Assembly: GCF_000969905.1 (NCBI RefSeq)
Contig: NZ_CP009520.1
Span: 1,426,001 to 1,490,000 of the forward strand
Length of the DNA: 64,000 nucleotides
From: Methanosarcina vacuolata Z-761
GTDB taxonomy: Archaea; Halobacteriota; Methanosarcinia; Methanosarcinales; Methanosarcinaceae
Direction of reading: 5' to 3'
The translations under genes were made by a program, and so were the position numbers. The notes beneath the pieces were generated by a model, which worked only from the letters and a program-made list of their open reading frames with translations, was not told the DNA's origin and searched no databases. The stretch's first letter is position 1, and every line of letters starts with the position of its first letter. Below, piece by piece: positions 33,406 to 47,994 of the stretch.

Positions 33406-34299
33406 TTAAAATTCGATCGTATCAGACCGGGGATCTGCAATAGATCTCAGTTCGGAACCGATGAGATTTACCGCAAGAACAAACAGCATGATCATGCCTC
33501 CTGAAGATAAAGCCATCATAGGTGCAGTCTGAAGGTATACAAGTCCATCTTTCAGTATTGTTCCCAGTTCCGGGGTAGGAGGCTGAATCCCAAGCCCTAA
33601 AAATCCAAGCCCAGAAATTGAAATAATCTTGGACCCCAATCCAAGCGTTGCGATCTCAATAATAGGTCCATAACTGTTGGGAAGAATGTGGCGGAAAAGA
33701 ATGTATTTATCAGATGCTCCAATTGCCCTGGCTGCCTCAACGAACCCGCTATTTTTCAGCGAAAGAGTGGATCCCCGGATTAATCGTGCATACTTTGCCC
33801 ATCCAGGAATGGAAAGTGATAGAATAATTCCTGCAGGACTTGGGCCTACAACTCCTACAATCGCAATTGAAAGAACTATACTGGGAAAAGCAAGAAAGAT
33901 ATCTGCCAATCGCATTAAGAAAGCATCGCACCTGCTGAAATAACCTGCATACATTCCTATGATAATTCCTGCAGGCACGATAATTAGAGTTGAAATAACT
34001 GCAATGAAGAATGAAGTCTGTGCACCATATAATATACGGCTTAAAATACACCTTCCAAACTGGTCCGTCCCAAGGGGAAAAGATGCTGATGGAGGAGATA
34101 ACTTTTCTTCAAGATGCATCTCTGCAGGGTCATGCGGAGAAATCACCGGAGCCATTACAGCTATCATGGAGATAAGAATAAACAGCAGGACTCCTATTGT
34201 AAGCGTTATATTGCTCCGCAAAACTCCCCATACTCTTTTCATTTCAGAAACTGCCAGTTTTTCATCAAAGTATGAGTGTTCCATATATATTCTCCTCAT
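33406..34299 (-). CDS. ABC transporter permease, peptide/nickel type (DppC/NikC-like)
   Basis: The inner-membrane permease, second of the pair, in a family-5 ABC importer. Its 297 residues include an N-terminal membrane helix (LTIGVLLFILISMIAVMAPV), a conserved HDPAEMHLEEKLSPPSASFPLGTDQFGR segment and the ATPase-docking EAARAIGASDKYILFRHILPN. Six membrane segments are expected. It starts within the stop of the upstream permease (TAATG overlap) with GGGAG before it. Last gene of the transporter operon in transcription order SBP-permease-permease, with the two ATPase genes upstream. Confidence 0.9.
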   Translation of the reverse strand: MRRIYMEHSYFDEKLAVSEMKRVWGVLRSNITLTIGVLLFILISMIAVMAPVISPHDPAEMHLEEKLSPPSASFPLGTDQFGRCILSRILYGAQTSFFIAVISTLIIVPAGIIIGMYAGYFSRCDAFLMRLADIFLAFPSIVLSIAIVGVVGPSPAGIILSLSIPGWAKYARLIRGSTLSLKNSGFVEAARAIGASDKYILFRHILPNSYGPIIEIATLGLGSKIISISGLGFLGLGIQPPTPELGTILKDGLVYLQTAPMMALSSGGMIMLFVLAVNLIGSELRSIADPRSDTIEF

Positions 34300-35243
34300 T
34301 ATTCTCCCTGAGCCCGGACTGATGGGTCAAGATAAAACTGAACAAGGTCAACAAAGAGATTAATAAGCACTACAATCACCGCGAAGGTGAGCATACATCC
34401 CTGCATCACCATGATGTCCATCGAAGAAACAGAGTTAACAAGAAGTCTCCCAAGTCCTGGTAGTGCAAAAATACTTTCAATGGTAACTGCCCCTCCGAAA
34501 ATCCATCCAAACTGGGTTCCCATATATATAATCACAGGAAGAAGTGCATTCTTTAGAGCATGCCGTTGAATAATTTTTCTGCGGTTGAGCCCTTTTGCAC
34601 GTGCTGTCCTTATATAATCCTGCTCAAGCGTTTCAATCATGCTTGTCCTCATGATACGCGCTGTAATTGCAATAAGGCCAACCGAAAGGGTGAGGGATGG
34701 TAGGATGAAGTATTCTATTCCTCCTGTTCCTGCAACCGGAAAGATGCCTAGATGGATACCTCCGATGAGCATAAAGACTATAGCAATAAAATACTCAGGA
34801 CTCGAGAGGCAGACTATTGAAGTAAGCCTGCAAAGATGATCTACAGGACCGTTCTGTCTCAGAGCTGCTGCAATTCCAAGCGGGATAGCTATGATAGCCG
34901 AGAATAACATTGAGAGAGAGGCTAGATAGAAGGTCGTTGGCAGAGCATATCTGATCTCTTCAAGAGTACTCCTTTTTGTCTGATAGGAATATCCCAGGTC
35001 TCCATGCACAACCCTTGAAATCCATTTTAGATAGCTAACATACCAGGGGTCGTCAAGCCCCATCTCTTTATGAAGTATGGCTACTGCCTCTTTAGGTGGA
35101 CTTTCGGTACCAAGAGTAGCTCTGAGCGTAATTTCAGCTGGGTCCCCTGGTGAAAGAGAAATTACTGTAAAAGTGATGAGAGATATCCCTACCATGACCT
35201 GTATCATTTGAAACAGACGGTTCAGTATAATTCTACGTATCAT
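34299..35243 (-). CDS. ABC transporter permease, peptide/nickel type (DppB/NikB-like)
   Basis: The first permease of the importer, 314 residues. MIRRIILNRLFQMIQVMVGISLITF is the typical N-terminal helix of DppB/NikB proteins, followed by LSPGDPAEITLRATLG and the DLGYSYQTKRSTLEEIRYALP periplasmic region. The docking motif reads YIRTARAKGLNRRKIIQRHALKNALLP. Six membrane segments. It lies 50 bp after the substrate-binding protein and overlaps the next permease by one base. Confidence 0.9.
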   Translation of the reverse strand: MIRRIILNRLFQMIQVMVGISLITFTVISLSPGDPAEITLRATLGTESPPKEAVAILHKEMGLDDPWYVSYLKWISRVVHGDLGYSYQTKRSTLEEIRYALPTTFYLASLSMLFSAIIAIPLGIAAALRQNGPVDHLCRLTSIVCLSSPEYFIAIVFMLIGGIHLGIFPVAGTGGIEYFILPSLTLSVGLIAITARIMRTSMIETLEQDYIRTARAKGLNRRKIIQRHALKNALLPVIIYMGTQFGWIFGGAVTIESIFALPGLGRLLVNSVSSMDIMVMQGCMLTFAVIVVLINLFVDLVQFYLDPSVRAQGE

Positions 35244-35292
35244 TCTTACTCAAACTCTTTTAAATGAAAAAGTGGTGGGTAGAATACCCACA

Positions 35293-36843
35293 TCAGGAAA
35301 TTGAAACATTCTGAAGGTCGAAAGAGCACTCTGTAGGATGGAGACGATATCCCTTTATGTTTGAAGTTGTGACGTCGATATTAACGTAGTAGTTAAGATA
35401 CGCAACCGGCGCTTCTTCGACAACAATTGCCTGAACTTCATCATAGAGTTTTTTTCTGGCAGCTTCATCGGAAGTAGTTCTGGCCTGCTCAATCAACTGA
35501 TCTACAGTATCGTTATGCCAGCGATATGCTCCCCAACCGTCGATTGATGTGCCACTTGAATGATAGTCCGTCATCATTATCTCATCAGGATCAGGTACGA
35601 AAAATAGTCCCCTTCCTACGAGGTAAATATCAAAATCTCCTTTATTCCTCTGGGTATTTGCGGCATCGGTATTGAGGACCTTAAGTTCTGTCTCTATGCC
35701 TACTTTCTTAAGCTGCTGCTGGATCACCTCAGCGATCGACGGCAGTTCTGCTCTTTCAGAATAAGTAACTAATGTAATCTTCATAGGCTTGCCGTTTTTA
35801 TCACGGGTCCCATCACCATCCGAGTCGGTCCATCCTGCTTCATCAAGGAGTGTTTTTGCTTTATCCACGTCGTAAGTATAAGGGGCAATATCCTTGTTTG
35901 CCCAGTAAAACTGAGGAGGAAAAAGTCCTGATGCTGTGGTTCCGTATCCGGAAAGGACAGAATTTACTATTGCTTCCCGATCTATAGCGTAATTAACAGC
36001 CTGACGTACCTTTTTATCGTTGAAGGGCTCCTTTTCCGTATTGAACGCTATCATCCTTACACGAGCGATCGGCTGCTCAAGGACTGTATAATCAGCTTTT
36101 TCGGTATATTTATCAGCAACATCGGGCGAAAGAATCATTGCTATCTGAATATCCTTACTGTCAAGGAGCATCTTTCTTGTAAGTACTTCAGGAATTATCC
36201 GGTATACCACCTTATCAACTGAAGCAACATGTCCCCAGTAATTGGGATTCTTAACGATGACAATTTCTTCTTCCGGTTTCCAGGATTCAAAGATGAAAGG
36301 CCCTGTGCCTATAGGCTTTGTGACATTTCCGCTTGCATCATAAGATCCGGGGGCAAGAGCAGCACTTTCTCCTTTGGAAAGATAAGCAGGAAGTGCAGGG
36401 AAAGTTGAATTAAGGTTGATTACTAATGTAAGGTCATCAGGAACCTCAATTGATGTTACAGGAATTTTTCCGAATGTTGATGCCGACTGGATAAAGGACC
36501 TTTCAAGAGATTTTTTCATTATTTCGGCTGTGAAAGGTGTCCCATCATGGAATAGAACGCCCTCTCTCAATTTGAATGTCCATTTTTTTCCATCATTGGA
36601 GACTTCCCATGAGTTTGCAAGATTTGGGATAATCTTTCCTTCATAATCAACTCCTACGAGAGTTTCTACGTACCCGAGCCTTTGAGGAACAGTCCCCGAT
36701 ATGTGAGGATCAATAGAGGTGGGACTCCATTGGCCTGAGATGGACAATGTTTGATTATCTCCTTTTTGTTCTTTGTCTGTACAGCCGGCTCCCAGGACAA
36801 CGAGAACCAGTAAAATAAAGAGAATTCCCTCTTTTCTTTTCAT
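35293..36843 (-). CDS. Family-5 extracellular solute-binding lipoprotein
   Basis: The solute-binding component of the importer (SBP_bac_5; DppA/NikA/OppA fold). Its 516 residues begin with a signal peptide ending in a lipobox-like VLVVLGAGC, so the protein is probably anchored outside the membrane. The family signature GYVETLVGVDYEGKIIPNLA and NYAIDREAIVNSVLSGYG are present. ATG 36843 is preferred over TTG 36852. The ligand (peptide, nickel complex or another oligo-compound) cannot be read from the sequence; the divergent methyltransferases hint at a modified metabolite. Confidence 0.9.
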   Translation of the reverse strand: MKRKEGILFILLVLVVLGAGCTDKEQKGDNQTLSISGQWSPTSIDPHISGTVPQRLGYVETLVGVDYEGKIIPNLANSWEVSNDGKKWTFKLREGVLFHDGTPFTAEIMKKSLERSFIQSASTFGKIPVTSIEVPDDLTLVINLNSTFPALPAYLSKGESAALAPGSYDASGNVTKPIGTGPFIFESWKPEEEIVIVKNPNYWGHVASVDKVVYRIIPEVLTRKMLLDSKDIQIAMILSPDVADKYTEKADYTVLEQPIARVRMIAFNTEKEPFNDKKVRQAVNYAIDREAIVNSVLSGYGTTASGLFPPQFYWANKDIAPYTYDVDKAKTLLDEAGWTDSDGDGTRDKNGKPMKITLVTYSERAELPSIAEVIQQQLKKVGIETELKVLNTDAANTQRNKGDFDIYLVGRGLFFVPDPDEIMMTDYHSSGTSIDGWGAYRWHNDTVDQLIEQARTTSDEAARKKLYDEVQAIVVEEAPVAYLNYYVNIDVTTSNIKGYRLHPTECSFDLQNVSIS

Positions 36844-36945
36844 ATTTACCAATCACACCTGATACTGTTATGTATCAACATCAAACTCCACAAAAATTTA
36901 CATATATAGAAAACTCTGGAGTTATCATCTTAATTTTGGGTAACC

Positions 36946-37084
36946 TGGTGGGACAATCCAGGATGATTTGTTGGACAATCCAGGATGATTTGTTGAACAA
37001 TCCAGGATAATTTGTTGAACAATCCAGGATGATTTGTTGAACAATCCAGGATGATTTGTTGGACAATCCAGGATAATTTATTGG
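36946..37084. repeat. 22-bp tandem repeat, 6 copies, inside the ABC operon
   Basis: Copies of GATTTGTTGGACAATCCAGG plus AT fill the gap between the substrate-binding protein and the ATPase genes. TTGGACAATCCA folds within each unit (TGGA/TCCA). A spurious minus-strand frame (36881-37093) arises from the repeat. Confidence 0.95.
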
Positions 37085-37152
37085 GGGAAGCACCCTGGAA
37101 TTGTGGTTGTACCGCTAAAACCTATTAGGGGATATCGAGAGTGTACGATTAA

Positions 37153-38067
37153 TCAAGTAGGCGAAAAATTATGGCAACGCACCCGTCTATCTTCGTATTC
37201 CATCATTTCAGGGCTGTGAAGGCATTTTTCTGTCTTTTCCGGGCAGAATTGATAATATAGGCATGAACCTGGAACCTTTGTCCCTTGAGGTTCAGATGGT
37301 GGCAAGGAACCGGAATCAGGGATTGATGTGATTCTGCGGGTAAATGGGTGGTATGGCCTGTCCAGAATACCCTTCCCTTCTTCTACTATCTGCCCGGCAA
37401 ACATTACAGCAGTCCTGTCACCAATAGCGTGTGCAAGCCCCTGGTCGTGAGTAATGAAGAGAAGGGCACATCCGAGATCTTGCTGGAGTGTTTTCAGGAG
37501 GTGTATAATAGATGCCTGGGTAGACACGTCGAGCATTGAAGTCGGTTCGTCACACATGAGAAGTGAAGGCTCAAGTGCGATAGCACGAGCAATAACAGCA
37601 CGTTGCAGTTCTCCACCGCTGAGCTGGTGAGGATATCTAGCTGCCTGCTCAGATTCAAGCCCAACGAGCCCAAGAAGCCTTTTTAGCTCTTCATCCATCT
37701 GCCTTCCGTGTAACGAATCAGGATGTATGCGGAAAGGTTCGCAGATTGAGTAAGCTATCGTCCACCTGGGGTCCAGGGAGCTTTCAGGCTGTTGAGGCAC
37801 AATCTGAATTTTTTTCCGGACAGAGCGGAGCTCTTTCCCTTTCAGTCTTGTAAGAGCCTGACCCTCAAAGAATATCTCTCCCCGTGTTGGAGGAATAAGC
37901 AAGAGGAGCAGTCTTGAGAGAGTTGACTTCCCACATCCGCTTTCTCCTACAAGAGTAAGGGTTTCTCCTGCTTCGATCCTGATATTTACATTGTCAACAG
38001 CGATGATCCTGTTTTTTCCGGGAGAATTGGGAGCGAATATCTTGGTCAGGCCTCTTCCTTCAATCAT
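37153..38067 (-). CDS. ABC transporter ATPase, peptide/nickel type (DppF/NikE-like)
   Basis: The second cytosolic ATPase of the importer, 304 residues. Walker A GESGCGKST, signature LSGGELQRAVIARAIAL, Walker B SLLMCDEPTSMLDV and the H-loop LLFITHDQGLAHAIG are intact. The C-terminus carries the Cys-rich oligopeptide/nickel ATPase extension (CLYYQFCPEKTEKC). The frame opens at TTG 38085, but ATG 38067 is chosen because GGAGGGAG lies 8 nt before it. A 22-bp direct duplication has copied this ribosome-binding site and start upstream (ATG 38089). Confidence 0.93.
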   Translation of the reverse strand: MIEGRGLTKIFAPNSPGKNRIIAVDNVNIRIEAGETLTLVGESGCGKSTLSRLLLLLIPPTRGEIFFEGQALTRLKGKELRSVRKKIQIVPQQPESSLDPRWTIAYSICEPFRIHPDSLHGRQMDEELKRLLGLVGLESEQAARYPHQLSGGELQRAVIARAIALEPSLLMCDEPTSMLDVSTQASIIHLLKTLQQDLGCALLFITHDQGLAHAIGDRTAVMFAGQIVEEGKGILDRPYHPFTRRITSIPDSGSLPPSEPQGTKVPGSCLYYQFCPEKTEKCLHSPEMMEYEDRRVRCHNFSPT

Positions 38068-38110
38068 GCGACTTTCTCCCTCCAATCATGCGACTTTCTC
38101 CCTTCAATCA
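38067..38110 (-). repeat. 22-bp duplication of a ribosome-binding site and start codon
   Basis: GGGAGAAAGTCGCATGATTG occurs twice in tandem on the minus strand. The upstream copy opens a 9-codon frame (MIGGRKSHD) whose TGA stop lies 2 nt after the ATG of the real ATPase gene, so ribosomes could terminate and restart. Confidence 0.8.
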
Positions 38111-39042
38111 TACAGCCAGCACCTGACAGCCGACCCTTCCAGAAGATGTATTAGAGGAGGTTCGACCCTGCACTTTTCGATTGCAGATGTGCATCTAAAC
38201 CGGAATTTACAGCCTCCATCGTTTTCTTCAGAATCTCCTGTTCCGGATGGTATAGGGTGAAGACCGTTTTCAGGGAGCGAACGAAGTAACCCTCTGGAAT
38301 AGGGGTGCAGTGGCCCATCAAAAAATTCCTGCCTCCCTCTTATTTCCACTATCCTCCCGGAATACATAACTGCAATCCTGTCCGCGAGGTTTTTGGCAAA
38401 GGGTAGATCATGTGTGATGATAATCAGAGTAATTCCTTCCTCACGTAAAACCCGAAGAAGGTAGGTGATAGCCTGCTTATTCATTATGTCTATACCCTTT
38501 GTAGGTTCGTCTGCAATAAGCACTTCCGGATGGCCTGAAATTCCCATAGCTACAAGTGAGCGTTGAAGCATTCCACCACTGAATGAATAAGGATAGGAGT
38601 CTATTCTTTCCTCAGGGGGAGTTATTCTGATGAATTTAAGGAGTTCAAGGACCTTCTTTCTAATTTTATTTTTGTCTTTTTCTATATGGAGAGAGATCGG
38701 TTCTCCGATCTGGTTTCCCACAGTCATCGAAGGATTCATTGCTCCTGCGGGGTTCTGAGGAACCCATGCAATCTTTCTGCCACGGATCATTTCAAGTTCA
38801 GTTTCAGAAAGGGTTAGAAGATCCTCCCCATGATATCGTATAACTCCGTTTACAGTGCAATTTGCAGGCAGCAGCCCTAGTAGCGCCAGACCCAGTACCG
38901 ATTTTCCGCTACCGCTCTCTCCTATAACTGCAAGTGTCTCGGACTGTTCGATGTTAATGTCAACCCCATCAACTGCCCGGATGACGGTGCTTGAAACGGG
39001 AAAATGTACATACAACTGTTGAACATCAAGAATCATGGTCAT
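38104..39042 (-). CDS. ABC transporter ATPase, peptide/nickel type (DppD/NikD-like)
   Basis: The first ATPase of the importer, 312 residues. Walker A GESGSGKSVLGLALLG, Q-loop VPQNPAGAMNPSMTVGNQI, signature YSFSGGMLQRSLVAMGI, Walker B EVLIADEPTKGIDIM and H-loop LIIITHDLPFAKNLA are intact. The C-terminal extension has CKFRFRCTSAIEKC. It is the first gene of the minus-strand transporter operon, and its promoter must lie in the 150-bp gap shared with the divergent methyltransferase genes. Confidence 0.93.
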   Translation of the reverse strand: MTMILDVQQLYVHFPVSSTVIRAVDGVDINIEQSETLAVIGESGSGKSVLGLALLGLLPANCTVNGVIRYHGEDLLTLSETELEMIRGRKIAWVPQNPAGAMNPSMTVGNQIGEPISLHIEKDKNKIRKKVLELLKFIRITPPEERIDSYPYSFSGGMLQRSLVAMGISGHPEVLIADEPTKGIDIMNKQAITYLLRVLREEGITLIIITHDLPFAKNLADRIAVMYSGRIVEIRGRQEFFDGPLHPYSRGLLRSLPENGLHPIPSGTGDSEENDGGCKFRFRCTSAIEKCRVEPPLIHLLEGSAVRCWLYD

Positions 39043-39194
39043 CTTGCTACATCTGCGTATCTTTTGTTATGAAAATTACAGGGTGTATGTTGTTACTATT
39101 TATATTTGTTTTCATATATTTCACCATAATAAAGAAATAAGTTATTATATCTTAATACTAATTTTTAGTTAATTAATAATTTTGAAGGAATAAT
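39043..39194. promoter_or_regulatory. Divergent promoter region, ABC operon and methyltransferases
   Basis: 150 bp of very AT-rich DNA between genes reading outward. TATA-like stretches occur on both strands (TTATATTTG about 39100; TTTAGTTAATTAATAA about 39164-39180). A shared control region would let importer and methyltransferases respond to the same signal. No operator motif can be pinned down. Confidence 0.45.
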
Positions 39195-40001
39195 ATGGTT
39201 ACGCAGATCGATTGGGAGACAGCCTGGGCTGCAGGCATCGGTGAGATGAATAGGCTTTCTACCACAAACTACTGGAATCAAAGGGCAGAGGATTATTCTG
39301 ATATGGTGCTGGCAAGTGATTGTAATCATGGACGGAATATCCTCAACCTGTTTGAAAAGGAAGGGCTGCTGCAGAAGGATTGGCATATTTTAGATATCGC
39401 ATCAGGCCCAGGTGCAATAACGATCCCATTTGCAGAGAGGGTAGGCAGGGTGACCGCTGTCGAGCCTGCGGAGAGGATGGCAGCAGCATTGATGTCACAT
39501 GCGCAGAACAGAGGGCTTTCCAATGTTGAGGTAATCCTTAAGACCTGGCAGGAAGTGGATGAGGCAGTTTATTCGAAAAACTATGATCTGGTTATCTGCT
39601 GCCATGCACTCTGGCAATTTTCGGACATTCTTTCGCAAATCCGACGGATGGAGGCAGTATCCAGAGGGTACTGTTGTCTTGCTCATGGGTTCGAGGCTCC
39701 TTCAGAGACCCTCAAACTAACGGAAGCTCTCGGGATCAATGAGGATGAATTTGATCAGTTTATCACAGTTTTCAATATTCTCAATGATTCTGGAGTGTAC
39801 CCGAACGTTGATGTGGTCGATTACACACTTAATCGGTCGGTTACCTCGGCAGTTACTTCGGTTGAGAAACTTGTTGAGAAATATCGACCTCTGGACTCTA
39901 GGGACAGAGAGATTATTCAGGAATACGTGCACAATCATGCTAATGAGGGCATGTATCAGGTTAGAGGCAGGATGGGTTTACTATGGTGGAAGGTAGCATG
40001 A
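39195..40001 (+). CDS. Class I SAM-dependent methyltransferase (first of a pair)
   Basis: A 268-residue soluble methyltransferase. Motif I is HILDIASGPGAITIPFAERV (SAM binding), motif II VTAVEPAERM, and a DLVICCHALWQFSD post-motif precedes a substrate domain of about 130 residues. NYWNQRAEDYSDMV before motif I is shared with its downstream neighbour, so the two arose by duplication. The substrate is unknown. Overlap with the next gene and divergence from the ABC importer suggest a joint task, for example modifying a scavenged or secreted small molecule. Confidence 0.88.
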   Translation: MVTQIDWETAWAAGIGEMNRLSTTNYWNQRAEDYSDMVLASDCNHGRNILNLFEKEGLLQKDWHILDIASGPGAITIPFAERVGRVTAVEPAERMAAALMSHAQNRGLSNVEVILKTWQEVDEAVYSKNYDLVICCHALWQFSDILSQIRRMEAVSRGYCCLAHGFEAPSETLKLTEALGINEDEFDQFITVFNILNDSGVYPNVDVVDYTLNRSVTSAVTSVEKLVEKYRPLDSRDREIIQEYVHNHANEGMYQVRGRMGLLWWKVA

Positions 40002-40870
40002 CTTCCGGCTCACTTACAGCTCCTGTAGACTGGGTCAGATGCTGGGAAGACAGTTATGATACCCGGTCTAAAATTATGTTCAGGGACTATGAACTAAATG
40101 ACTGGAATGAAAGGGCAGAGGATTATTCAGAATCCAGGCGGACAAATAATTACGAGTTCGGAGAGTCAGTATACTCTACACTTGCCCTACATGGAGTTGT
40201 TTCTCCTCGTTCAAGGGTCCTTGAAGTTGGTGCAGGTCCGGGAACGTTTGTAATACCCTTTGCAAAGAAAGTTGATCATATAACTGCTATTGAGCCTGCA
40301 GAGGGAATGATCCGTATGATCTCTCAAAATGCTGTGGAAGCCGGAGTGGATAACTATGATATTATCCCAAAAATCTGGCAGGATGTGAACATCGAAGATA
40401 TCAGGGGACGGTATGACCTTACTATCACTTCAACAGTTATATGGATGTTTCGTGACATTATGACCCAGATAAGCCGGATGGAAGAGGTAACACAGGGACA
40501 TTGCTGTGTGGTTTGTGGGGTAGGTACAGGGCAGACATTTGAAGCCGAACTCTGGAAGAAAATCATGGGTAATACACCTCATCCTCAGTACCCGGAATAC
40601 CCTTTGATCTATAATCTCCTTTACACGTGTGGAAGAGTCCCTCATGTTAGGTTTATCAATTATACAAGTCTGAGGTCACCTGAGAATATGCTCAAAATGT
40701 ACAGGGTTTTCTACTCAATCTACACAGAGGTCACACCTGAAGTTGAGGAGATTATTCGAGAAGCATTGTACCGTGACTCCGGAGAAGGTCCATGTGTCAG
40801 GAAATACCGCTCCGCTGTGGTCTGGTGGAATCCGGCTGTTCGAAGAAAAGAGTTTACAGGTATTGCCTGA
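39998..40870 (+). CDS. Class I SAM-dependent methyltransferase (second of a pair)
   Basis: A 290-residue paralogue of the preceding protein. Motif I is RVLEVGAGPGTFVIPFAKKV, followed by ITAIEPAEGM and LTITSTVIWMFRDI. DWNERAEDYSESRR before motif I matches the NQRAEDYSD of the first enzyme. ATG 39998 overlaps the stop of the first gene (ATGA) and has GGAAGG just before it; an in-frame ATG at 39983 is also possible. Paired paralogous methyltransferases often act as a heterodimer or at successive positions of one substrate; which applies here cannot be told. Confidence 0.88.
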   Translation: MTSGSLTAPVDWVRCWEDSYDTRSKIMFRDYELNDWNERAEDYSESRRTNNYEFGESVYSTLALHGVVSPRSRVLEVGAGPGTFVIPFAKKVDHITAIEPAEGMIRMISQNAVEAGVDNYDIIPKIWQDVNIEDIRGRYDLTITSTVIWMFRDIMTQISRMEEVTQGHCCVVCGVGTGQTFEAELWKKIMGNTPHPQYPEYPLIYNLLYTCGRVPHVRFINYTSLRSPENMLKMYRVFYSIYTEVTPEVEEIIREALYRDSGEGPCVRKYRSAVVWWNPAVRRKEFTGIA

Positions 40871-41018: not shown

Positions 41019-41768
41019 TCAATCTGTCAATCCGAATTGTTCCCAGGCTTCTTTAATATTCATGGTGCGCATTCCCAGTTTTTTTGCAGGCGCTAGCTCG
41101 TTTTCGTCAGAGTCTCCTATTGACATGACACATTTGGGTTCGAGTTCAAGGCCCATCCTTTTGAGCGCAGTCATAAAAAGTCTGAGGTCAGGTTTTTTAT
41201 ACCCTACATCCGATGAGAAGATAACAAAGTCAAAATAATCGTGGAGCCCGAGAAACCTGAGTTCCAGTTCAGAAAAAACTCTTTGCCCATTGGAGATTAC
41301 ACATTTGGGAATGTTTATGCAATGTTCAATCAGTTTGATGCTCTGAGGGAAAGCCCGGAGTTTCCTTATAGAAGCTGCCCGAAAGACCCTTGAAGCTTCT
41401 ACTCCCAGGCTGTTTTCGTCAATATTCCAGACCGAATTTTCCCGGCAGATCTCTGCAAAGATTTCCTCTACCTTGATCTCTGGGTACACTTCCCTGGAAA
41501 TCTCCATTTTCTGTCTGACCTTAAACATGTACGTATCCCAAAGCTTTTCGGGCTCGATTTTCACTCCCTGATAGGCAAGCCATGCGCTCAGTACTTTATA
41601 TGTCTCCAGGCTATGCTCGTCAGTATGAATGTCAATGAGGGTCTCATAGCAGTCAAAGATAACCCCTTTTATATGGCAGCTCTCAAATGCCTCCTCTCCC
41701 TTTGCAAGAGAATGACTAAGAAATGTAACTTCATCCTTGCTTACCTCAGGTCCGTAATTCTCCGATAT
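41019..41768 (-). CDS. HAD superfamily hydrolase, apparent ATA start
   Basis: A haloacid dehalogenase-type phosphatase of about 249 residues. Motif I is VIFDCYETLID, with Tyr at the usual second Asp position as in the dehalogenase branch. Motif II is VISNGQRVFSE, motif III Lys lies in GYKKPDLRLF, and motif IV is MSIGDSDENELAPA. The frame opens at ATG 41783, but that ATG overlaps the GGGAGG tract; in-frame ATA 41768 lies exactly 7 nt after it and fits better as the initiation site. It sits 46 bp after an APH-like kinase gene on the same strand, so kinase and phosphatase may act on the same compound. Confidence 0.85.
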   Translation of the reverse strand: MSENYGPEVSKDEVTFLSHSLAKGEEAFESCHIKGVIFDCYETLIDIHTDEHSLETYKVLSAWLAYQGVKIEPEKLWDTYMFKVRQKMEISREVYPEIKVEEIFAEICRENSVWNIDENSLGVEASRVFRAASIRKLRAFPQSIKLIEHCINIPKCVISNGQRVFSELELRFLGLHDYFDFVIFSSDVGYKKPDLRLFMTALKRMGLELEPKCVMSIGDSDENELAPAKKLGMRTMNIKEAWEQFGLTD

Positions 41769-41814
41769 GTTCTTTCCTCCCATATCCCTTTTGCTTAAGT
41801 TTCTACTTCATGTT

Positions 41815-42762
41815 TTATCTGTAATTAATTGCCTTTAAACATTCACATGCTTCTCTAATGAGATAATTTCTATAGTCGCTCTGGTGGAGTCTTGCCGAGC
41901 GAAGGAGCCCTATACTCATGAAAAAAGGCAAAGTTCTGGTAATATAGTAAAAATCTTTTTCATTGCTGCTGTATTCCCAGAGGAAATTTCCGATATACGG
42001 TTCAGCTTTCTCTCCTCCCCCCATATGCAGCTCGAACTCGTTTTTAAGTTCTGCAGCTAGAATTCCGAGATCTCTTACAGGATGTGCCTCAAACCAGGAG
42101 CTTTCAAAATCAAGGGCATAAGGTTTGTCTTTGCAGAAAATATAATTGGAAAGGTTGACATCCCTGTGAACCATGCATCCGTATTCCCTGTCTAGCAGGG
42201 GGCTATACCACCATTCTCCAAGTAATTTATTGAAAGTTTCTCTAGTGTCATGGTCCAGTTTCAGATGGCCCAGGACATCATGATAATTTCTGAATTCATT
42301 TTCCTTATTATAGGAAGATTTTGTGTTATCATGCAGTTGTCGGAGCATATGCGCAACTGCAGCAAGCCTCTCATATCGCTTTTCTTCGTGCCTGATACAC
42401 CAGCCCAGAGATTTTCCAGGTATATGTTCCGTTACAAGGACGCAATTGAACTTCTTATTGATTGCAAGAGGTCTTGCAACATTTATTACCGACGCAGCCT
42501 TTCTAAGGTTCCGGTACTCATTCATCATGCCTTTATATGGATTATAATCTTTCAACTGACCAGTAGGTTCGGCAAAAAACTTTGCCATAACGCTGAAGTG
42601 TTCACTCTTGAACTGGTACCTGCAGACCGTATGGGAAGAGTTGTATTTAAAAACATTAACAGAGCAATTTTTATTCCGTAGCCTATCCCCAACAACTTCT
42701 TCAACAAGCCAGTCCCTAAAAGGATCACCAGGGTTTAAAGTATTAACATGGCGGGATGCCAA
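41815..42762 (-). CDS. Aminoglycoside phosphotransferase-like small-molecule kinase
   Basis: A 315-residue kinase-fold protein. The catalytic loop CMVHRDVNLSNYIF (HxD...N) and metal-binding LDFESSW near residues 208-240 are typical of the APH/choline kinase/LPS kinase branch. CVLVTEHIPGKSLGW forms the hinge. The N-terminal lobe is weakly conserved. Such kinases phosphorylate sugars, choline, homoserine, antibiotics or lipopolysaccharide cores; none can be chosen here. It starts at TTG 42762 with GGGGGT before it. First gene of a two-gene unit with the HAD phosphatase. Confidence 0.8.
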   Translation of the reverse strand: MASRHVNTLNPGDPFRDWLVEEVVGDRLRNKNCSVNVFKYNSSHTVCRYQFKSEHFSVMAKFFAEPTGQLKDYNPYKGMMNEYRNLRKAASVINVARPLAINKKFNCVLVTEHIPGKSLGWCIRHEEKRYERLAAVAHMLRQLHDNTKSSYNKENEFRNYHDVLGHLKLDHDTRETFNKLLGEWWYSPLLDREYGCMVHRDVNLSNYIFCKDKPYALDFESSWFEAHPVRDLGILAAELKNEFELHMGGGEKAEPYIGNFLWEYSSNEKDFYYITRTLPFFMSIGLLRSARLHQSDYRNYLIREACECLKAINYR

Positions 42763-47157: not shown

Positions 47158-47946
47158 TTACTTTTTGCTCTTGCTAGCTTCCTCTTCTTTCCTGATCTCT
47201 TCAACAACTTCCATCAGTTTTTCCTTAATTTTTGCTATAGCGTCAACAGCTTCGCCGCCTACCTCAATAGGAGCCCGTTTCTCCAGGTCGGCCTGCATTA
47301 ACATGGTGTCAAAGGGAATTTCTCCAAGTACCTGGATGCCCATCTCTTCAAGTTTATCGTTAACTTTTCCCGAGCCTCCTTTATTAATTACGGCAGCAAG
47401 GTGTTTTATCCCTATTTCGGAAGACAGCTTTTTTATTCTCTCAGCCGTTTCAAGCGATCTTGCTCCAGGCTCAACTACAACGATCATGAGGTCCATTCCT
47501 CTTGTAGTGCCCCTTCCGAGATGTTCAATCCCGGCTTCCATATCAAGGATTACTGCACTCTTTTCCTTGAGCATAAGGTGCCTGAGAAGAGCCCTCAGGA
47601 AAGCCGAGGCAGGACACATGCATCCGCTTCCTCCGCGGTCTACGGTTCCCATGACAAGCATTCTAACTCCATCGGGCCCTATAACTCCGTACTTACTCGC
47701 AATATCATCGACTTTAGGGTTGTAGATGAAAGCTCCACCTTCGGCGCCTGCCCTTTCCTGAATCAGGTCTTTGAATTCTGTCAGGGGCTTTGGGGGATTT
47801 TCGACCCCAAGCGAAGATGCCAGGTTCATATCCGGGTCTGCATCTATTGCCAGTACCTCGTATCCGTCCCTTGCAAGCAGTCTGGCCAGAGTGCCTGAAA
47901 GAGTTGTTTTTCCAACGCCGCCTTTTCCGGTAATTGCTATTTTTAT
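47158..47946 (-). CDS. cooC: CooC-like nickel-insertion / P-loop ATPase, apparent ATA start
   Basis: A MinD/CooC-type P-loop ATPase of about 262 residues. CooC proteins load nickel into carbon monoxide dehydrogenase. The deviant Walker A KIAITGKGGVGKTTLSG, then VLAIDADPDMNLASSLG, the nickel-site-like GSGCMCPASAFLR (Cys-x-Cys), VILDMEAGIEHLGRGT and VVVEPGARSLETAERIK are all present. The first ATG in frame (47829) lies after the P-loop and would destroy the enzyme. No ATG, GTG or TTG occurs between the upstream stop and the P-loop. ATA 47946 gives the family start (M)KIAITGKGG, with GGGGG 7 nt upstream. A one-base change in the G5 tract would be the alternative. Confidence 0.9.
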   Translation of the reverse strand: MKIAITGKGGVGKTTLSGTLARLLARDGYEVLAIDADPDMNLASSLGVENPPKPLTEFKDLIQERAGAEGGAFIYNPKVDDIASKYGVIGPDGVRMLVMGTVDRGGSGCMCPASAFLRALLRHLMLKEKSAVILDMEAGIEHLGRGTTRGMDLMIVVVEPGARSLETAERIKKLSSEIGIKHLAAVINKGGSGKVNDKLEEMGIQVLGEIPFDTMLMQADLEKRAPIEVGGEAVDAIAKIKEKLMEVVEEIRKEEEASKSKK

Positions 47947-47994
47947 GAAGATTCCCCCTGAACATTAATTTAGATTTAAATTTAAATGTTTTAG

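Follow-up and report, generated by a model that had tools for sequence, protein, structure and literature searches.

A family-5 ABC importer conserved with two divergent methyltransferases in Methanosarcina vacuolata, a candidate module for metal acquisition

The importer, the methyltransferases and their control region

The genome of Methanosarcina vacuolata Z-761 (4.56 Mb, two contigs) carries, within the 64,000-nucleotide stretch analyzed here (contig NZ_CP009520.1, positions 1,426,001 to 1,490,000; hereafter the window, whose numbering is used throughout), a family-5 ATP-binding cassette (ABC) importer divergent from two genes for paralogous S-adenosylmethionine (SAM)-dependent methyltransferases, designated MT1 and MT2. 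The initial annotation had described a complete five-gene importer, and all five genes were indeed identified on the minus strand (33406-39042). The system however reaches down to 33406, past the start first noted (35293), so that both permease genes fall outside the earlier stretch, which holds those of the binding protein and the ATPases. The first gene (38104-39042) encodes an ABC ATPase similar to OppD, DppD and NikD and is followed by the gene of a NikE/DppF-like ATPase (37153-38085), both recognized by family profile matches. The third gene encodes the substrate-binding lipoprotein of family 5 (35293-36843; SBP_bac_5, 360.7 bits), for which the in-frame ATG at 36843 agrees with the starts of its orthologues, rather than the TTG at 36852, and whose lipobox cysteine is invariant across 18 aligned rows. 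The last two genes encode a NikB/OppB-like permease (34299-35243; BPD_transp_1 with an N-terminal domain) and a NikC/OppC-like permease (33406-34299; BPD_transp_1 and OppC_N). With SBP_bac_5, two BPD_transp_1 and two ABC ATPase proteins in one cluster, the lipoprotein, permeases and ATPases constitute, by family membership, a nickel/peptide-class importer. A 22-bp tandem repeat of 6.1 copies (36951-37084) occupies part of the 300 bp which separate the binding-protein gene from that of the second ATPase.

The control region common to the importer and the methyltransferases, previously estimated at about 150 bp, measures 152 bp between start codons (39043-39194). It is conserved among Methanosarcina orthologues, whose alignment delineates a core at 39082-39105, and TATA-like stretches were noticed by eye on both of its sides. 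On the plus strand, MT1 (39195-40001) and MT2 (39983-40870) proved to be overlapping paralogues, as had been proposed, with 29% identity and an overlap of 19 bp, reduced to 4 bp if MT2 begins at its second ATG (39998).

Both proteins are class I SAM-dependent methyltransferases, with Methyltransf_25 scores of 44 bits (MT1) and 31.2 bits (MT2) against a gathering score of 27 bits. The fold was checked on an AlphaFold2 model of MT1 (predicted local distance difference test (pLDDT) score 90.0), which gave Z scores of about 20 with solved class I enzymes. Its best matches are small-molecule methyltransferases, namely the thiol S-methyltransferases TmtA (Z 20.2) and GtmA (Z 19.9), with root-mean-square deviations (rmsd) of 3.2 and 3.3 over 244 aligned residues, followed by UbiG (Z 19.4); ChlM is also among its neighbors (Z 18.5, rmsd 3.1, 198 aligned). 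Reading the substrate of MT1 from its fold was rejected, TmtA, GtmA and UbiG being tied within 1 Z. Neither paralogue could be placed in the more specific families considered: scores with CpaM, a corrinoid-protein-associated methyltransferase, were 38 and 29.9 bits (cutoff 180), similarity to the CbiT model was weak (27.8, cutoff 78.3), and the nicotianamine synthase (NAS) profile was matched by neither protein at an E-value of 0.001. Motif I reads DIASGPG in MT1 and EVGAGPG in MT2; in the alignment of the two proteins, MT1 has an alanine at the site of the first motif I glycine of MT2, and one subunit may therefore be specialized. Phylogenetic analysis of 90 relatives places MT1 and MT2 in sister clades, each with Methanosarcina, Methanocalculus and Methanoregula proteins; their duplication is therefore old, and both copies were retained.

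The importer subunits were similarly compared with curated models. The binding protein scored 299.7 and 292.1 bits with two NikA models (cutoffs 600 and 393), 219.3 bits with the CntA model of the staphylopine system (cutoff 800), and below the cutoffs of peptide importers such as Opp4A (214.4 versus 650) and DppA (179.1 versus 1005). The permeases remained under the cutoff of 350 for Opp2B (329.3; 34299-35243) and Opp1C (274.9; 33406-34299), and the ATPases under those of NikE (229.3 versus 332.55; 37153-38085) and NikD (186.7 versus 318.7; 38104-39042). The binding protein was likewise modeled with AlphaFold2 (pLDDT 87.9), and the solved fold closest to this model is SaNikA (Z 41.8, rmsd 3.4, 462 aligned), with an uncharacterized protein and NikZ within 2 Z of it, and with GbpA (Z 39.3), DppA (Z 38.6, rmsd 2.4, 470 aligned) and CntA (Z 36.2) also among the proteins compared. 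Because the scores of SaNikA, NikZ and DppA lie close together, the model gives a weak lean toward the nickel class over the peptide class, not a proof.

These comparisons bear on one alternative, in which the importer would take up a metal-free nutrient or signal (a peptide, an opine, a thiol or a similar compound) to be methylated by MT1 and MT2 for use or detoxification. Family-5 importers carry peptides, glutathione and opines; DppA and GbpA score close to the nickel proteins as neighbors of the binding protein; and the thiol methyltransferases TmtA and GtmA head the folds of MT1, in a tie with UbiG. The peptide-importer cutoffs are however missed too, which distinguishes the system from the Opp/Dpp importers of the same transporter family, and the recurrent partners of the methyltransferase family are metal-handling genes, as described below. 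A metal-free solute is regarded as unlikely.

Conservation and recurrence of the pairing

The binding protein, MT1 and MT2 have orthologues in an identical set of 10 of the 100 genomes of the family, host genome included, and at the thresholds used the other 90 have none of the three (MT1 orthologues were defined by an identity of at least 75%, with the addition of one 48% homologue in genome G079). Conservation of the pair across genomes, which the initial annotation had put forward as a check, is thus borne out, all ten genomes with MT1 and MT2 orthologues also carrying the importer. Gene order is the same in 9 of 9 orthologous loci of the other genomes (L052-L060), the two halves being about 2 kb apart in one of them (L059). 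It recurs in a Methanoregula contig (L069), with different neighbors at the importer's end, and the same genes occur in another arrangement in a Methanocalculus contig (L068), in which the methyltransferases converge on the importer.

The pairing was further investigated in three Methanosarcina genomes by measuring how often Methyltransf_25 genes and family-5 binding proteins lie within 6 kb of each other, with 2000 circular shifts per genome as the null. A methyltransferase accompanies 6 of 8, 11 of 13 and 7 of 9 importer modules, against shift-null means of 1.3, 2.4 and 1.4. Conversely, 10 of 57, 16 of 88 and 12 of 56 Methyltransf_25 matches lie near a family-5 binding protein (p from 0.0005 to 0.0015 for the methyltransferase count). 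In the same genomes, FecCD permease modules have a methyltransferase in 1 of 3 (not significant), 7 of 13 and 5 of 6 cases. As shown by the shared distribution over 10 genomes out of 100 and by the shift test, the pairing of the importer with MT1 and MT2 is a conserved and recurrent unit, beyond what chance would produce.

The two halves might also be neighbors by descent only, having been joined once and kept together without a common function. Consistent with this explanation, the order of the surrounding genes (a ValRS gene, recognized by eye, and the HAD and APH genes) is also kept in most Methanosarcina orthologous loci. The importer-linked methyltransferases fall however in at least two subfamilies, so a single copying of the link together with one gene does not account for it, and the presence of different subfamilies beside different importer modules in each of the three genomes of the shift test strongly disfavors mere inheritance of proximity. 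Importer classes moreover differ across phyla, and the module is intact in Methanoregula next to other genes at the importer's end. This explanation is considered very improbable.

The order methyltransferase then family-5 importer also occurs in bacterial contigs, from Desulfotruncus (L079, with one large gene between the two), Desulfobacula (L092), a Desulfobacteraceae member (L094) and a Syntrophomonadaceae member (L101). In the open-access literature searched, no account of an association between methyltransferases and such importers was found.

Several side observations concern these modules. In the host genome, one family-5 binding-protein gene (L049, G000:C2:4238000-4252000) is split by a 542-amino-acid open reading frame (ORF), perhaps an insertion element, and has a methyltransferase on each side. 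Four family-5 operons (L076, L078, L081, L083) end in an ORF of about 343 amino acids and another (L181) in two of about 385; the terminal ORFs of L076 and L181 are O-methyltransferases of the Dimerisation/Methyltransf_2 type. Near the window module, the HAD-type hydrolase and APH-type kinase genes (41019-42762, minus strand) adjoin MT2 in 7 of 9 orthologous loci. About 6 kb from MT2 lies a CooC-like ATPase frame (47161-47964, minus strand; 165.6 bits to CooC1) with no ATG, GTG or TTG ahead of its P-loop; it may start in an unusual way, contain a sequence error or be a decayed gene.

Metal-related genes around the methyltransferase family and in the host genome

The genomic context of the wider family was surveyed with 90 methyltransferases in 85 loci (79 best-match loci and 6 others), an importer being scored if within four genes; the fractions describe near relatives only and, like the counts below, hold among the matches listed. 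A family-5 importer lies near 19 of the 90 and a FecBCD-type importer near 21, while only another ABC ATPase was scored near 13, of which three are misplaced, two (L067, L083) belonging near family 5 and one (L093) near FecCD. These clusters provide several links to metals. In 8 of 79 loci, the methyltransferase is accompanied by a CooC-like ATPase, each with a CAC (CxC) motif; in one of them (L113), this motif lines up with the nickel-binding CxC of CooC1, a CO dehydrogenase accessory protein. In L075 and L090, a P1B heavy-metal ATPase gene separates the methyltransferase gene from that of the binding protein, a TonB-dependent receptor is found downstream in L109, and in L061 an MT1 homologue lies between FecD and an MFS transporter. 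In the Methanoregula module, the genes facing the importer's end are those of a CooC-like ATPase that has a His-rich loop and of a DUF4198 protein, presumably a NikK-type periplasmic component, which weakly matches the NCBIfam NikL family model (19.4 bits, cutoff 100). The host genome itself contains a cluster (L177, G000:C2:3786000-3803000) of FecB, methyltransferase, radical SAM protein with a Peripla_BP_2-like part, FecC, FecD and F390 synthetase genes, with NikR about 490 bp further on; the genome has three NikR_C genes. A second locus (L179) has the order and gene sizes of L177, the locus in which the families were checked. Collectively, these gene neighborhoods support a metal-related context for the methyltransferase family. 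The FecBCD/CooC/methyltransferase clusters of methanogens found here resemble the window module in placing the same methyltransferase family beside a metal-type importer, but they involve another importer superfamily and an attached CooC-like ATPase.

The same neighborhoods raise the alternative that the module salvages or remodels a metal tetrapyrrole (corrinoid, heme or F430), taken up by the importer and modified by the methyltransferases. FecBCD-type partners and the TonB receptor suit corrinoid or heme uptake, and the weak similarity of the methyltransferases to CbiT and CpaM, together with ChlM among the structural neighbors of MT1, points in the same direction. The CbiT and CpaM scores are nonetheless far under their cutoffs, the CooC-like partners indicate nickel, and no cobalamin riboswitch was detected in the bacterial loci searched, making tetrapyrrole remodeling improbable.

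Other importers and potential ligand-building enzymes of the host were also considered. Two of its family-5 modules, L050 and L051, have no methyltransferase. They include a YntA-like pair, one of the L050 proteins scoring 408 bits against YntA, a protein solved with Ni(L-His)2. The host therefore seems to possess a nickel-histidine importer already, and the importers linked to methyltransferases may rely on different ligands. Of the 25 Methanosarcina genomes searched, 23 encode NAS homologues; the host has three, one of which matches thermonicotianamine synthase (E-value 1.6e-23) and weakly CntL (E-value 0.00099). A methyltransferase gene stands ahead of NAS genes in five genomes (G083, G093, G061, G099, G054). 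In G083, the pair moreover faces genes for CbiQ and an ABC ATPase, which belong to a transporter of the cobalt/nickel type. The tandem pair of the host (L197, G000:C2:3722000-3741000) has no preceding methyltransferase; further NAS loci are L196 and L199-L204. As no NAS gene lies near the window module, a connection between them is only suggestive.

A putative role in ligand-assisted metal uptake

Methanogens have a high need for nickel and cobalt and live in sulfide-rich settings, where both metals precipitate. The reading we favor, with moderate confidence and from comparative sequence evidence, is that the seven genes make up a module for metal acquisition, in which the solute would be a transition metal held by a small organic ligand; we infer that nickel would be the likeliest metal, followed by cobalt. 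MT1 and MT2 would act on the ligand in the cytoplasm, either to finish a metallophore for secretion or to modify the imported ligand, which would free the metal and allow the ligand to be reused. If self-made, the ligand backbone could come from the NAS homologues encoded elsewhere in the genome. The divergent layout would allow one regulator to set both halves.

Two known systems are instructive. Like the NikABCDE and YntABCDE nickel importers, the window system is a five-component family-5 importer with nickel-binding proteins among the nearest solved folds of its binding protein; it differs by missing the curated NikA-E cutoffs, by the lack of conservation of E. coli NikA His416 and by its two attached methyltransferases, and a separate YntA-like system is present in the same genome. 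The staphylopine Cnt system of Staphylococcus likewise combines a family-5 importer with small-molecule enzymes, and NAS-type enzymes exist in this genome; here, however, the CntA cutoff is missed, class I methyltransferases stand in place of CntL, and no NAS, racemase or opine dehydrogenase (CntL, CntK, CntM) was recognized beside the importer. The methylated metallophore suggested in the initial annotation is thus favored by the conservation of the pair, the wider metal context and the NAS homologues of the genome, and disfavored by the missed nickel and staphylopine cutoffs and by the lack of a metallophore-building enzyme in the cluster.

Several observations weigh against metal acquisition. 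No importer subunit reaches the curated NCBIfam cutoffs for nickel, peptide or staphylopine systems. In pairwise alignments, which are uncertain near position 416, the binding protein has other residues at the positions of R97, R137 and H416 of E. coli NikA. The title of a PDB entry describes H416 as essential; nickel-binding proteins other than E. coli NikA may nonetheless do without these three residues. In PMC2667541, NikA residues served to tell NikABCDE from peptide importers. The cluster contains no gene for biosynthesis, the NAS genes being far from it. Among the wider family, 37 of the 90 methyltransferases have no labeled importer part nearby, a point which also favors a metal-free solute, and 10 adjoin an FtsX/MacB-type ABC system. 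The finding which had been expected to undermine the pairing, methyltransferases mostly without the importer, thus does not apply to the MT1 and MT2 orthologues and applies in part to their relatives. The core of the control region is not shared either: 12 loci were scanned without a match under 4 mismatches in 17 positions, and a common operator for the modules of the host genome was rejected, so that no link between the window module and Ni/Co regulation emerged. Lastly, no metal or cobalamin riboswitch was found in 11 of the 14 bacterial loci first chosen, the only hit being a group II intron.

Proteomic data from Methanosarcina barkeri are related to this question. PMC10846266 reports that binding proteins annotated for dipeptides, oligopeptides or nickel are lower with Fe(II)/cysteine than with FeS2, with fold changes above 130, and its authors propose roles in cell-cell recognition and biofilm. 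A metal shortage in sulfide-bearing medium would, in our view, equally explain the change. The binding proteins being pooled in that study, with this module not singled out, the proteome was rejected as direct evidence and is only suggestive.

A more specific scheme, which is speculative and quite unlikely, is that Methanosarcina species make methylated nicotianamine-like nickel metallophores, with a methylation pattern for each importer as a private lock and key for nickel (or cobalt). NAS homologues would build the backbone, and the attached methyltransferases would write a pattern read only by the lipoprotein of their own importer. If true, it would represent an archaeal metallophore pathway with methylation-based diversification.

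The methyltransferase-importer unit, found in most family-5 modules of three Methanosarcina genomes, provides a concrete gene set with which metal uptake by way of a ligand can be tested in archaea; it may also explain why these importers are so difficult to annotate.

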